Origin: Candidatus Dormiibacterota bacterium
GTDB taxonomy: Bacteria; Chloroflexota; Dormibacteria; Aeolococcales; Bog-877
Direction of reading: 5' to 3'
NCBI GenBank assembly: GCA_027306885.1
Contig: DAHUYV010000075.1
Coordinates: 1-38,415 of the forward strand
Length of the DNA: 38,415 nucleotides
Shown here piece by piece: positions 33,221-38,050 of the stretch (position 1 is its first letter; the number at the start of each line of letters is the position of its first letter). The translations under genes and the position numbers were made by a program. The notes under the pieces were generated by a model. The model saw only the letters and a program-made list of their open reading frames with translations, did no database searches and was not told the origin of the DNA.

Positions 33221-33644
33221 GCAGACCCTCGGCGCACTGCAGGCGCTCTGCGACGCCCACCGGCTCCACCGCGACCTCCGCCTCGTCCTCGGGGAGGGCG
33301 GGCGCGCCCTCTCGGCGGTGGTGCCGGAGATGTGGCTCGAGGCCGACGAGGACGACGCGGTCCACGGGGGGATCCTCGCCACCGTCATCGACGTGGCCGC
33401 GGTCTTCGCCCTCATCGCGGCGACGGGTCACGACTGGTCGACCGTCGACCTGCGCCTGGACTACCTGCGCCCGGTCCGGACCAGGGCGCTGTCGGTGACC
33501 TCGGAGCCGCTGCACGTGGGGCGCTCGCTGGCCCGGGTGCAGAGCCGGCTGCTCGATGAGACCGGCGCCCTCTCGGTGGTGGGCAGTGGGGCCTTCAGAC
33601 GCGGGCCACAGCTGGACCTCGGGGGCGCCGAGGACGACCGATGA
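33210..33644 (+). CDS. PaaI-type hotdog thioesterase
   Basis: This 144-residue protein has the PaaI-like hotdog fold, which hydrolyses acyl-CoA thioesters. The active-site helix reads VHGGILATVIDVAAVFA, with Asp61 as the likely catalytic residue, and YLRPVRTRALSVTSEPLHVGRS is the typical substrate-pocket strand. TTG 33210 has GGAGG six bases upstream. It overlaps both neighbours: the MDR gene by 11 bases and the next gene as ATGA. Confidence 0.9.
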   Translation: MPTEQTLGALQALCDAHRLHRDLRLVLGEGGRALSAVVPEMWLEADEDDAVHGGILATVIDVAAVFALIAATGHDWSTVDLRLDYLRPVRTRALSVTSEPLHVGRSLARVQSRLLDETGALSVVGSGAFRRGPQLDLGGAEDDR

Positions 33645-34909
33645 AACTGGAGATAACGCCCGAGGTGGGACTGATCGACGACGACGTCCGAGTTGCCGTC
33701 CACGGGGGGAGCCCCGGGGCGCCGGTGCGGCTGAGGGGCCATCGGACCGACCGGGCGGGCTCCGAGTGGAGAAGCTGGGCGGACTTCAACCTCGACGCCG
33801 AGGGCCGCCTGGACCTCGCCCGGGCCGAACCGCTGGCCGGCACCTACCGCGGCCGGCACGCCGCCGGGCTGTTCTGGTCGATGCGGACCGAGGGCCCCTC
33901 GCCGGCCCGGGAGGAGACGCTCGCCGACCAGGTGGCCGATCTCCGCTTTGAGATCACCCTGGAGGTCGATGGCCGCGCCGTGGACTCCCGGGAGGTGCTC
34001 CTCAGGTGGGCCGGGCCGGGAGTGGCGAGGGAGGCCGTGGCGCGGGACGGGGTGATCGCATCGCTCTGGGTGCCGGCCGGGTCTCCCCCCTTCCGTCCGG
34101 TCCTGTCGTTCGGCGGGTCCGACGGCGCGGTTCACGAGGAGACGGGCGCACTCCTGGCCTCGCGGGGCTTCCTCACCATGGCGCTGCCCTACTTCCGATA
34201 CCCGGGGCTGCCCCCGGAGCTCGTCGACATCCCTCTCGAGTACTTCGAGCGGGCGCTGAACATGCTGCTCGACGATCCGCGGGCGGCGCGCCCGGGCGGG
34301 GTTGGGGTGGTGGGCCGCTCTCGAGGGGGCGAGCTCGCCCTCCTGCTGGGGGCGACGTTCCCCACCGTCGACGCGGTGGTGGCGTACGTGCCCAGCGGGA
34401 TAGTCCACTCCGGGATCACCTCTGGAGGCCCGTCCTGGCAGTCCGACGTCCCCTCCTGGACCCGCGCCGGAGCCCCGGTGCCGTACCTGGGCCACGTCCC
34501 CCAGGGGTCGCCGGCCTCCGAGCTTCCTCCACCGGTCCGGCTCACCCCCCTCTACTGCGCCGACCTCGCCGACTGGGGCTCGGCCCAGGCGGCGGCGATC
34601 CCGCTGGAGCGATCGGCGGCCCGCCTCCTCCTCATCTCGGGAATGGATGACGCGATGTGGCCCTCGAGCCTGTTCTCCGAGCTGGCGATGGCGCGGCTGC
34701 ACGCCTTCGGCTATCCCCGGCCCCACCGCCACCTGGCGTTTCCCGAGGCCGGCCACCGCTTCAACTTCCCCAACCTGCCGGCCACGACCACCGCGTCCAT
34801 CCACCCTGCGGACGGCCAGATGTACGAGTACGGCGGAACCCCCGAGGGCAACACCAGAGCCGGGCTGGAGGCTCATCGGGCCGCCCTCGCCTGGCTGCGC
34901 GGGGAGTAG
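33641..34909 (+). CDS. BAAT/acyl-CoA thioesterase-like alpha/beta hydrolase
   Basis: This 422-residue protein has the two-part layout of acyl-CoA thioesterase/BAAT proteins: an N-terminal beta-sandwich (about 1-130) and a C-terminal alpha/beta hydrolase domain. The nucleophile elbow is GRSRGGE with Ser227. The acid is in SGMDDAMWPSS (Asp336 or Asp337), and the base is His372 in AGHRFNFP. Ser rather than Cys suggests thioesterase or esterase activity over amino-acid conjugation. It is coupled to the hotdog thioesterase by ATGA. Confidence 0.9.
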   Translation: MKLEITPEVGLIDDDVRVAVHGGSPGAPVRLRGHRTDRAGSEWRSWADFNLDAEGRLDLARAEPLAGTYRGRHAAGLFWSMRTEGPSPAREETLADQVADLRFEITLEVDGRAVDSREVLLRWAGPGVAREAVARDGVIASLWVPAGSPPFRPVLSFGGSDGAVHEETGALLASRGFLTMALPYFRYPGLPPELVDIPLEYFERALNMLLDDPRAARPGGVGVVGRSRGGELALLLGATFPTVDAVVAYVPSGIVHSGITSGGPSWQSDVPSWTRAGAPVPYLGHVPQGSPASELPPPVRLTPLYCADLADWGSAQAAAIPLERSAARLLLISGMDDAMWPSSLFSELAMARLHAFGYPRPHRHLAFPEAGHRFNFPNLPATTTASIHPADGQMYEYGGTPEGNTRAGLEAHRAALAWLRGE

Positions 34910-34963: not shown

Positions 34964-34972
34964 CTACGGCGC

Positions 34973-37018
34973 ATGGCTGAGGAAGTGGAGCGGCCCATGC
35001 TCAACCTGGCGATCCTGGGCCACAGTCACGACGGCAAGACCACCCTCGCGGAGGCGCTCCTCTTCGCCTCCGGCGCCATCCCCAGGATGGGCTCCACCGA
35101 CCAGGGAACCACCGCGCTCGACTTCGAGCCGGAGGAGCAGCGCCGGCACATCTCGGTGCAGGTGGGGATGGCCACCCTGAACTGGCGGGGCCGCCGCGTC
35201 ACCCTGCTGGACACCCCGGGCTTCCAGGACTACGCCGGTGAGGTGCTGGAGGCGCTGGCGGTGGCCGACGCCGCCGTGGTCACGGTGAGCGCCAGTTCGG
35301 CCGGGCATCTGGCGGTGGGGACCGAGACCGCCTGGCGGCAGCTGGAGGGCCGGGGGCTGCCGCGGATCCTGGTCATGACCAAGCTGGACAAGGAGCACGC
35401 CGACTTCAAGGGCACCCTTGCCACCCTGGAGCAGCGGCTCAGCCCGCGACCGGTGGCGGTGCAGCTGCCGATCGGCGACGAGCACTCCTTCAAAGGGGCG
35501 GTGGACCTCATCACCGGCCGGGCGCTGATCTTCGACGAGCGCGGGGGGCAACGGGAGGAGGACTCTCCCGCGGAGCTGTCGGGCGAGGTCGCTCGGCTTC
35601 GCCAGCAGCTGGTGGAAGCGGTCTGCGAGACTGACGACGGGCTGCTGGAGCGGTACCTGGAGGGGGAGGAGCCGGCGCCGGAGCAGCTGCGCTCGGCGCT
35701 GCGCCGGGCGACCGCGGAGGCCAAGCTCGCCCCCCTCCTGGTCGCTGCCCCGGCGCGGGCGCTGGGAGCCGGTGCCATCCTCGACCACCTCGGCGACTGC
35801 GTCGCCGGGGAGTCGGAGGGGGATCCCGAGGGGGCCCCGGTGCTCTTCGTCTTCAAGACGATGGCCGACCCCTTCGGACGGGTCACCTACTTCAAGGTGG
35901 TGCGCGGGACGCTGGGGGCCGACGCTCACCTGGTCAACTGTGGCAACGGGCAGGAGGAGCGGATCGCCCGGCCGCTCCGGCCCAAGGGGAAGGCGCTGGA
36001 GCCCCAGGAGAAGCTGGTCGCCGGAGAGCTGGGGGCGGCCACCAAGCTCCTGCACACCAACACCGGCGACACCCTCGGCGCCAAGGGGACCGAGGCGCTG
36101 GCTCCGATCGAGTTCCCCGACCCCTCCTACACCATGGCGATCCGCCCCAAGAGCAAGGGCGACGAGGAGAAGATCCACTCCGGCCTGGCGCACATGCTGG
36201 AGGAGGACCGGACCCTGCGGCTGGAGCGCGAGCCGGCGACCAAGGAGACCCTGCTGCACGGCCTCGGGGACGTGCACCTGGAGGTGACCCTGGAGAAGCT
36301 GCGCCGCAAGTACCAGGTCGACGCCGTGCTGGCCACCCCCAAGGTCCCCTACCAGGAGACGGTGCGGGGGACGGCGCGCCAGCAGCACCGCTACAAGAAG
36401 CAGTCCGGCGGCGCCGGCCTCTACGGGGACTGCACCCTGGAGGTGGAGCCGCTGACCCGCGGGAGTGGGTTCGTCTTCGAGGACAAGATCTTCGGCGGTT
36501 CGATCCCCCAGCAGTTCCGCCCGTCGGTGGAGAAGGGGGTCCAGCAGACCCTGGGGGAGGGTGTGCTGGCCGGCTTCCCGCTGGTCGACCTGAAGGTGAG
36601 GCTGGTGGACGGCTCCACCCACCCCGTCGACGGCAAGGACATCGCCTTCCAACTGGCTGGGGCGATGGCGATGCGGGAGGCGGCGGAGAAGGCCGGCCTC
36701 TACCTCCTCGAGCCGGTGATGGACGTGGAGGTGGTGGTCCCCGAGGAGACGATGGGGGAGGTGATCGGCCACCTGAACTCTCGCCGGGGGCGCATCGGCG
36801 GGATGCTCCCGGCCGGCGACGGGGTGGAGCGGGTCTCGGCCCAGGTGCCGCTGGCGGAGATGTACCACTTCCCGATCGAGCTGCGGGCGATGACCCAGGG
36901 CCGCGGCCGCTACCGGATGACCTTCAGCCACTACGAGGAGGTGCCGGCCCCGGTGGCGCAGCCGATCGTGGAGGCCCATCGGGCCGCGGCGCACCAGAAG
37001 GAGGCCGCGGCCTCCTGA
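34973..37018 (+). CDS. Elongation-factor-G-like GTPase (EF-G2 type)
   Basis: This is a 681-residue protein with the full EF-G domain order. The GTPase has P-loop GHSHDGKTT (16-24), switch II DTPGF (80-84) and TKLD (136-139) in the place of NKxD. Domain II, then EF-G III-V follow (HGLGDVHLEVTLEKLRRKY, LVDGSTHPVDGKDIAFQLAG, EVVVPEETMGEVIGHLNSRRG). DTPGF lacks the catalytic His of DTPGH, and the guanine-specificity Asn is Thr. This fits the EF-G2 family, whose role is unclear, rather than the essential translational FusA. The neighbours do not reveal its role. Confidence 0.93.
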   Translation: MAEEVERPMLNLAILGHSHDGKTTLAEALLFASGAIPRMGSTDQGTTALDFEPEEQRRHISVQVGMATLNWRGRRVTLLDTPGFQDYAGEVLEALAVADAAVVTVSASSAGHLAVGTETAWRQLEGRGLPRILVMTKLDKEHADFKGTLATLEQRLSPRPVAVQLPIGDEHSFKGAVDLITGRALIFDERGGQREEDSPAELSGEVARLRQQLVEAVCETDDGLLERYLEGEEPAPEQLRSALRRATAEAKLAPLLVAAPARALGAGAILDHLGDCVAGESEGDPEGAPVLFVFKTMADPFGRVTYFKVVRGTLGADAHLVNCGNGQEERIARPLRPKGKALEPQEKLVAGELGAATKLLHTNTGDTLGAKGTEALAPIEFPDPSYTMAIRPKSKGDEEKIHSGLAHMLEEDRTLRLEREPATKETLLHGLGDVHLEVTLEKLRRKYQVDAVLATPKVPYQETVRGTARQQHRYKKQSGGAGLYGDCTLEVEPLTRGSGFVFEDKIFGGSIPQQFRPSVEKGVQQTLGEGVLAGFPLVDLKVRLVDGSTHPVDGKDIAFQLAGAMAMREAAEKAGLYLLEPVMDVEVVVPEETMGEVIGHLNSRRGRIGGMLPAGDGVERVSAQVPLAEMYHFPIELRAMTQGRGRYRMTFSHYEEVPAPVAQPIVEAHRAAAHQKEAAAS

Positions 37019-37044
37019 CCCATTCCGTGAGGGATGGGTATAGT
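37015..37044 (+). promoter_or_regulatory. Promoter of the pirin gene
   Basis: CTGACC (37015-37020, four of six), an 18-base spacer and TATAGT (37039-37044, five of six) form a good promoter. Its -10 lies inside the first codons of a longer open frame at 37034, showing that the real start is the downstream ATG at 37082. Confidence 0.55.
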
Positions 37045-37081
37045 TGTGTGTGCAACAACCGGCGTACCCCTGGAGTTGACC

Positions 37082-38050
37082 ATGCCCGCCATCAGCGCCG
37101 ACCCGATCACCCTGCCCCGCCTGCCCGAGGCCCTCGGCCGGGACCGCCCGGTGGTCTCGGTGACCACCGCCCCATCCGGACTGGAGGGCGAGGGCTTCCC
37201 GGTCCGCCGGGCGTTCGCCGGGGTCGCTCAGAGCCAGCTCGACCCGTTCGTGCACATGGACCAGATGGGGGAGGTCGAGTACCAGCCCGGAGAGCCCAAG
37301 GGGACCCCCTGGCACCCGCACCGGGGCTTCGAGACCGTCACCTACATGATCGACGGCACCTTCCAGCACCAGGACTCCAACGGCGGCGGTGGGGTGATCA
37401 CCAACGGCGACACCCAGTGGATGACCGCCGGCGCCGGGATCCTTCACATCGAGACCCCACCGGAGCGGCTGGTGGCCAGCGGGGGGCTGTTCCACGGCAT
37501 CCAGCTCTGGGTGAACCTCCCGAGCCGCCTCAAGTGGAGCCCTCCTCGGTACCAGGACATCCGGGGCGGCCAGGTCCGCCTTCTGGGGTCCAGCGACGGG
37601 GCCTCCCTGCTGCGGCTCATCGCCGGGGAGCTCGCCGGCCAGAGCGGCCCCGGGGTCACCCACACCCCGATCGCGATGGTGCACGCCACCATCACCCCGG
37701 GCTCGGTCCTCCACCTGCCCTGGCGTTCCGACTTCAACGCCCTCGCCTACGTGCTGGCGGGCAGCGGGGTGGCCGGCTCCGCCCACCCGATCCGCACCGG
37801 CCAGCTCGCCGTCTTCGGGTCGGGTGACCGGGTGACGCTGGCGGCGGACCTTCAGCAGGAGAGCCGCACCCCGACCCTGGAGGTGCTGGTCCTGGGCGGC
37901 CTGCCCATCGGGGAGCCGGTGGCGTGGTACGGCCCCTTCGTCATGAACACCGAGGCGGAGCTCCGCCAGGCGTTCGCCGACTACCGTGCCGGCCGGTTGG
38001 GCACCGTCCCCGCCGCCCACCTCGACCTCGGGACGCCGATCGCCCCCTAG
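37082..38050 (+). CDS. Pirin-family cupin protein
   Basis: Pirins are two-cupin metal proteins, some with quercetinase activity. The 322-residue protein has the metal ligands His78 and His80 in HPHRGFETVTYM, and His122 and Glu124 in AGAGILHIE; the spacing matches the family. The C-terminal cupin follows and ends normally. The ATG at 37082 has GGAG six bases upstream. The upstream in-frame ATG at 37034 overlaps the promoter -10 and is rejected. Role is unknown. Confidence 0.93.
   Translation: MPAISADPITLPRLPEALGRDRPVVSVTTAPSGLEGEGFPVRRAFAGVAQSQLDPFVHMDQMGEVEYQPGEPKGTPWHPHRGFETVTYMIDGTFQHQDSNGGGGVITNGDTQWMTAGAGILHIETPPERLVASGGLFHGIQLWVNLPSRLKWSPPRYQDIRGGQVRLLGSSDGASLLRLIAGELAGQSGPGVTHTPIAMVHATITPGSVLHLPWRSDFNALAYVLAGSGVAGSAHPIRTGQLAVFGSGDRVTLAADLQQESRTPTLEVLVLGGLPIGEPVAWYGPFVMNTEAELRQAFADYRAGRLGTVPAAHLDLGTPIAP

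Follow-up and report, generated by a model that had tools for sequence, protein, structure and literature searches.

Published accounts of the EFG II paralogues of elongation factor G (EF-G) describe mixed behaviour. For the EF-G-2 of Thermus thermophilus, GTP hydrolysis and activity in poly(Phe) synthesis are reported (PMC3150367), and a second source assigns it a ribosome-dependent GTPase with low poly(Phe) synthesis activity (PMC3832671); without ribosomes, the first source credits it with higher intrinsic GTPase whereas the second describes little GTPase, and a figure legend of PMC3150367 describes its structure, 1wdt, as holding GTP. The EF-G2 of Mycobacterium smegmatis is reported in PMC3150367 to bind guanine nucleotides and to be without ribosome-dependent GTPase, and Bacteroides EF-G2 is said to enable GTP-independent translation (PMC10294740, citing Han 2022) and to be induced under carbon limitation (PMC6989115). 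With respect to the monovalent cation of the active site, PMC4342817, which names just the two cation positions and gives no numbers, describes EFGII as having Gly at the P-loop position and a poorly conserved switch I residue.

The contribution of the switch II histidine has been examined in E. coli EF-G, where the H91A replacement is reported to leave intrinsic hydrolysis and GTP affinity about unchanged, to make ribosome-stimulated hydrolysis 7-fold slower and to lower the rate of Pi release from 28 per second to 0.32 per second; with H91Q, GTP hydrolysis matches the wild type and Pi release is slowed (PMC4532990), so that not every replacement of the histidine slows hydrolysis. Among the matches listed in the open-access literature, no title states a loss of this histidine in EF-G paralogues, or concerns EF-G in Chloroflexota, and the main text of PMC3150367 holds no word beginning 'tyr', 'his87' or 'catalytic'.

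The window analysed here is a stretch of 38,415 nucleotides from a Candidatus Dormiibacterota bacterium (class Dormibacteria, phylum Chloroflexota; the NCBI taxonomy places the class Candidatus Dormibacteria in Candidatus Dormiibacterota), in which positions 34973-37018 encode an EFG II-type EF-G paralogue that exists beside a canonical EF-G; the gene is genuine, but as an EFG II paralogue it is ordinary, and its active-site variant is found at the level of the class. Residues were counted in four groups of sequences, consisting of 75 EFG II proteins of the same class (one from each of 75 genomes, out of 110 class genomes that were searched), 38 EFG II proteins from the rest of the phylum, 26 canonical EF-Gs and 38 EFG II proteins of Bacilli. 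The features of the locus are these:

33641..34909, + strand: upstream neighbour, acyl-CoA thioester hydrolase/BAAT-like (Pfam), context only
34973..37018, + strand: EFG II (EF-G2) gene, ATG start, 681 aa (Pfam, NCBIfam, tree, AlphaFold model)
35018..35044, + strand: P-loop, G16-T24, GHSHDGKTT, with the class-specific His19-Asp20 (canonical AHIDAGKT against GHSHDGKT here)
35144..35158, + strand: switch I / G2 motif, R58-V62, RHISV (canonical RGITI)
35210..35224, + strand: switch II / G3 motif, D80-F84, DTPGF in the context LLDTPGFQDY, with Phe84 (35222-35224) in place of the catalytic His
35378..35389, + strand: G4 motif, T136-D139, TKLD in the context VMTKLDKEH; the same in 1wdt and 9k0z
35747..35752, + strand: G5 motif, A259-P260 (AP here; canonical copies mostly S or A, then A or S)
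36401..36421, + strand: domain IV loop I, Q477-L483, QSGGAGL, with the kept translocation residues Q477, G479 and G480
36620..36640, + strand: domain IV tip, H550 (T. thermophilus H573) and VDGKD
37034..38050, + strand: downstream neighbour, pirin-like (Pfam), starting 15 bases past the EFG II stop codon, context only

The two unusual motifs that a preliminary description of this DNA had read, DTPGF in switch II and TKLD in G4, were confirmed as Phe84 and Thr136 of the 681-aa open reading frame. Its statement that the EF-G domains are present also held, in that the Pfam models GTP_EFTU, EFG_III, EFG_IV and EFG_C pass their cut-offs in the normal EF-G order, with two domain II models narrowly below theirs (28.6 vs 30.3 bits and 26.1 vs 27 bits). 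An AlphaFold model of the protein (30 sequences) has a mean pLDDT of 89.9, and its Foldseek matches are solved EF-Gs, among which T. thermophilus EF-G-2 (1wdt) has the third-ranking E-value. On the minus strand, a 1018-aa open frame (34964-38020) that runs antisense to the EFG II and pirin genes is presumably a by-product of high G+C.

Membership of the EFG II subfamily is carried by a maximum-likelihood tree of 96 protein rows including LepA, made by a quick method with SH-aLRT support, in which the 26 canonical EF-Gs are set apart by one branch (support 90) and the 69 EFG II rows by another (97); the 21 rows from the class form one clade inside EFG II (100). Seven loci had been relabelled after inspection of their motifs (L121 to EFG II; L130, L132, L135, L136, L137 and L140 to canonical), which would be circular by motifs alone, and the tree placed all seven on the same sides. 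At the marker positions of Tables 1 and 2 of PMC3150367, which list 13 although the abstract says twelve, 11 of 13 match, the misses being V250 to Leu and L264 to Ile. Thus the tree support of 97 and the markers bear out the preliminary assignment to an EF-G2-type paralogue. In EFG II, RGITI characteristically gives way to a motif whose Mg2+ position is Ser; here the motif is RHISV, with Ser61 in all 75 class sequences. The other EF-G that always accompanies EFG II, mostly EFG I, is present as fusA on another contig. The NKxD motif, reported in PMC3150367 to be conserved in the subfamily, is replaced by TKLD, which was not counted against membership because 1wdt, that paper's own reference structure for the subfamily, has TKLD; NKxD is moreover common to GTPases and does not discriminate EFG II. 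Among the NCBIfam models, the two named 'elongation factor G' that are of PRK12740 type pass their cut-offs (NF009381, 777.9 bits against 583; NF009379, 520.6 against 513), and NF009377 (EF-G-like protein EF-G2; 554 against 890) and NF058620 (EFG2_Bacteroid; 476 against 1000) fail theirs. The canonical model TIGR00484 also fails (554.7 bits against 659.4), and the gene has DTPGF and lies outside a str operon context.

The presence of a canonical fusA elsewhere had been proposed as a test, and such a gene was found. A search of the genome for EF-G domain III led to three places, namely the EFG II gene, a LepA and a canonical EF-G of 704 aa on contig C123 that has DTPGH and NKMD; Pfam matches around the latter (S12, S7, EF-Tu, L3, L4) correspond to a str operon arrangement, in which fusA is flanked by S7 and EF-Tu. 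Of the 110 class genomes, 84 contain at least two strong EF-G matches, with fragments counted. Three class genomes (G112, G070 and G143) have two EFG II-like matches each in addition to a canonical-like one, possibly reflecting a second copy, a strain mixture or contamination. As to the immediate neighbourhood, among 76 loci searched, whose flanks mostly extend about 1.5 kb and thus carry little information on function, the thioesterase-like upstream gene was found at this locus alone, and the pirin-like gene at 15 (12 loci of the same family and three named records, some of the matches partial at contig ends).

The residue at position 84 is Phe in 75/75 of the class sequences, His in 26/26 canonical EF-Gs, and in the other EFG II proteins of the phylum Tyr in 32, Asp in 3, Phe in 2 and Ala in 1 (n=38), with no His. 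The Bacilli group was chosen by Asn or Ser at this position from the 61 of 80 listed loci with at least 600 aa that had been found by a domain IV pattern (the remaining 23 being 22 Phe and one unreliable Asp), which makes a switch II count within this group circular; a repeat count made without that choice covered all of the at least 118 proteins with the pattern, mostly of Bacilli and the class studied here according to their record titles, and gave Asn 43, Phe 36, Ser 8 and His 0 for the 87 in which switch II was readable, 31 being unreadable by motif and the set as a whole giving no frequency. In all eight Bacilli genomes checked, such an EFG II is accompanied by a canonical EF-G that has DTPGH. 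Switch II reads DxPGN or DxPGS, and the domain IV tip Q[ST]GG[SA]GF, in EFG II from uncultured relatives of Acholeplasmatales, Anaeroplasmataceae and Erysipelotrichaceae (L269-L276; Bacilli among L144-L221). Absence of the switch II His is thus the rule in the EFG II proteins sampled, a family trait and no peculiarity of a single gene, and an exceptional standing of the protein on account of Phe84 and Thr136 was not supported.

Other positions of the active site, in the P-loop, switch I and G5, have changed as well, departures that the preliminary description leaves unmentioned. His19 is found in 75/75 class sequences and in 0/38 of the other EFG II proteins of the phylum, 0/37 of the Bacilli EFG II proteins with a letter there and 0/26 canonical EF-Gs; the class P-loop GHSH[DE]GKT, with mostly Asp20 and Glu20 in 3, occurs in none of the other groups. 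Positions 18, 19 and 84 are I, D and H in 26/26 canonical EF-Gs, 0/75 class sequences and 0/38 other EFG II proteins of the phylum; in the class, where Ser, His and Phe stand in their place, none of the three keeps the canonical residue in any sequence. In switch I, G59 is present in all 26 canonical sequences, in 6/38 of the other EFG II proteins of the phylum and in 0/75 of the class, where Lys, Ser, His and other residues stand instead, and Ile60 is kept here and in 65/75 class sequences.

Of the two residues whose conservation was to be checked, F84 is fixed in the class sample and T136 varies. The first G4 residue in the class is Asn in 56, Thr in 18 and Gly in 1 of 75, with the Asn thus replaced in 19/75 class sequences and also in 7/38 of the other EFG II proteins of the phylum; Thr occurs in 16 of 17 sequences of the same family, and in three separate places of the tree (this family, L050 of family f2, and family f12). 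TKLD is compatible with guanine binding, given that 1wdt is described as holding GTP and the M. smegmatis protein is reported to bind guanine nucleotides; the proposal that TKLD abolishes guanine binding was accordingly rejected, and Thr136 is taken as a neutral G4 variant.

In domain IV, the residues associated with translocation are retained. Wherever a sequence of the four groups has a letter at the position, Q477, G479, G480 and H550 are invariant, as are G21, K22, T23, D80, P82 and G83, which serve nucleotide binding; the four domain IV residues align to Q500, G502, G503 and H573 of T. thermophilus EF-G; both loop I glycines are kept in 75/75 class sequences. Q500 and H573 are presumably the equivalents of E. 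coli Q507 and H583. The two E. coli residues are described as tip residues contacting the tRNA-mRNA complex (PMC9307594). An early suggestion that Leu483 stands where the glutamine for reading-frame maintenance (Q507 in E. coli) has been lost was withdrawn, as Q507 corresponds to Q500 and to Gln477 here, which is kept; Leu483 aligns instead to T. thermophilus Q506, where 3 of the 26 canonical EF-Gs have Met. Within the class, the domain IV loops of families f1-f3 are GG[AS]GL and VDGKD, in contrast to GGHGQ and VDSSE. In family f4, HGQ is retained and is combined with VDSN or VDSS, and a further two sequences of the class take an intermediate form (A, Q, G, K).

The EFG II gene evolves faster than the canonical factor and is under purifying selection in the genus. 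Its identity to six classmates is 0.49-0.55, compared with 0.69-0.76 for the canonical EF-Gs of the same genomes, and its dN/dS lies between 0.17 and 0.21 in comparisons with six congeners and between 0.21 and 0.39 with eight other members of the family, a comparison from which the L047 row (0.99) was dropped as an apparent wrong-frame artefact and L045 was left out. All six congeners with a match have an open frame, a seventh (G105) showing the canonical match alone, and the two nearest relatives among the named records examined are at 86% identity to the protein described here. Because Phe84 is present in 75/75 class sequences and dN/dS is 0.17-0.21, chance or decay as the origin of the variant is disfavoured.

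From these residue patterns and by analogy with described EF-Gs, the gene would encode a GTP-binding auxiliary translocase in which ribosome-triggered hydrolysis is weak or absent, a reading given a probability of roughly 0.55. The residues that hold GTP and Mg2+ are retained (G21, K22, T23, S61, D80, G83, K137 and D139), as are the equivalents of the T. thermophilus domain IV residues that contact tRNA and mRNA during translocation. Four positions with a part in triggering hydrolysis in canonical EF-G and EF-Tu are replaced, namely wing one of the hydrophobic gate, where I has become S18, the two monovalent-cation positions, where D has become H19 and G has become H59, and switch II, where F84 has taken the place of His. 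From EF-Tu work, the two gate wings are taken here to be positions 18 and 60, and retention of the second wing, I60, is a counterpoint to a loss of hydrolysis. Such a protein may bind GTP, enter the A site and let the ribosome translocate, while the ribosome would trigger hydrolysis and phosphate release slowly or never, with slow turnover as the consequence; a factor of this kind would be of use to cells that grow slowly or are short of energy, a setting reported for Bacteroides EF-G2. The altered GTP hydrolysis first suggested from the missing His is therefore plausible as such, but His loss alone does not mean loss of activity, as the T. thermophilus protein with Tyr is reported to be active.

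That same protein provides the case for a less probable alternative, namely an EFG II factor with ordinary ribosome-dependent GTPase in which the changes are tolerated, serving as a second and somewhat slower translocase. T. thermophilus EF-G-2, with Tyr and TKLD, is reported to be a GTPase on ribosomes with some poly(Phe) activity (PMC3150367, PMC3832671) and ranks high among the structural matches of the model; since it lacks the His and yet is GTPase-active, sequence alone cannot separate weak from near-normal hydrolysis. However, Phe, unlike Tyr, has no hydroxyl for contact with water, replacements extend to the cation positions and to one wing of the gate, and ribosome-dependent GTPase is reported to be lacking in the M. 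smegmatis EF-G2, whose motifs are DTPGY and TKLD.

More doubtful still is a factor restricted to recycling, which would join RRF in splitting ribosomes as the EF-G2 of mitochondria and that of Borrelia do. A second EF-G beside the canonical one would fit such a role, and loop I changes are reported to matter little for ribosome disassembly, but in each of the named factors a single loop I glycine is described as remaining of the pair (PMC8203779), and the presence of both glycines throughout the class makes a recycling-only role less likely. An equally improbable extension of the preferred reading would make the class proteins GTP-clamped translocases with a rebuilt active site, in which the His19-Asp20 dyad lies at the site of the Asp that binds a monovalent cation in EF-Tu and EF-G, and could stand in for the lost switch II His by neutralising charge or directing the water. 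A strict link between the dyad and Phe84 is weakened because Phe84 occurs with Gly19 in two sequences of family f15, and strict Phe84-His19 coupling was rejected on this second occurrence. The two sequences (L131 and L139) represent a separate appearance of DxPGF in EFG II and have loop II VDSK and tip GGAGQ.

Tet-type EF-G-like factors act on drug-bound ribosomes, and the ribosome-rescue role raised at the outset belongs with them as a very improbable reading of rescue or protection. The NCBIfam model tet_protect does score 276 bits, but this is far under its cut-off of 775 while two 'elongation factor G' models are passed, Pfam shows no added domain, and the neighbours tested are thioesterase-like and pirin-like; the Tet-type role was rejected on the family scores, and nothing among family scores, domains or tested neighbours supports rescue. 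A decaying, functionless duplicate, for which the faster evolution might speak, is highly improbable given the dN/dS values, the open frame in the six congeners and the two or more strong EF-G matches in most class genomes.

A general statement, made in the introduction of PMC4532990, holds that the switch II His is present in all translational GTPases. EFG II, a paralogue common among bacteria, departs from it in 113/113 proteins counted in this phylum (Tyr, Phe, Asp, Ala), as well as in the Bacilli EFG II proteins found by pattern (Asn or Ser). With domain IV contacts kept, EFG II proteins form a natural series in which the dependence of translocation on ribosome-triggered hydrolysis can be studied.

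Among solved members of this series, T. thermophilus EF-G-2 (1wdt, 2dy1) resembles the protein described here in its five domains, 39% identity (Foldseek alignment), TKLD and lack of a switch II His, and differs in having DAPGY with Tyr84 and the P-loop GHAGSGKTT. The M. smegmatis EF-G2 (9k0z, the protein on the ribosome, and 9k10) likewise has TKLD and an aromatic residue in place of His, but the residue is Tyr (DTPGY) and the chain has 709 aa. The B. thetaiotaomicron EF-G2 (8dmf, 7uvp), which probably belongs to EFG II judging from the G2 pattern given for Bacteroidetes in PMC3150367, is also a second EF-G besides the canonical one without the switch II His, but has Ser in switch II (DCPGS), NQLD as G4 and YGYSV as G2; the chain in 7uvp and 8dmf bears the molecule name tetracycline resistance protein TetQ while the title of 8dmf says EF-G2, a naming trap for annotation. 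With the EFG II subfamily as a whole (Margus, Remm and Tenson 2011) the protein shares the clade, 11 of 13 markers, the xxxSx form of the G2 motif and a canonical EF-G alongside. It differs from EFG II elsewhere in the phylum, where position 19 is Gly (35/38), position 20 mostly Ala and the switch II residue commonly Tyr (32/38), and with His19-Asp20 and Phe at these places the gene adds a Phe lineage and a distinctive P-loop to the EFG II series.
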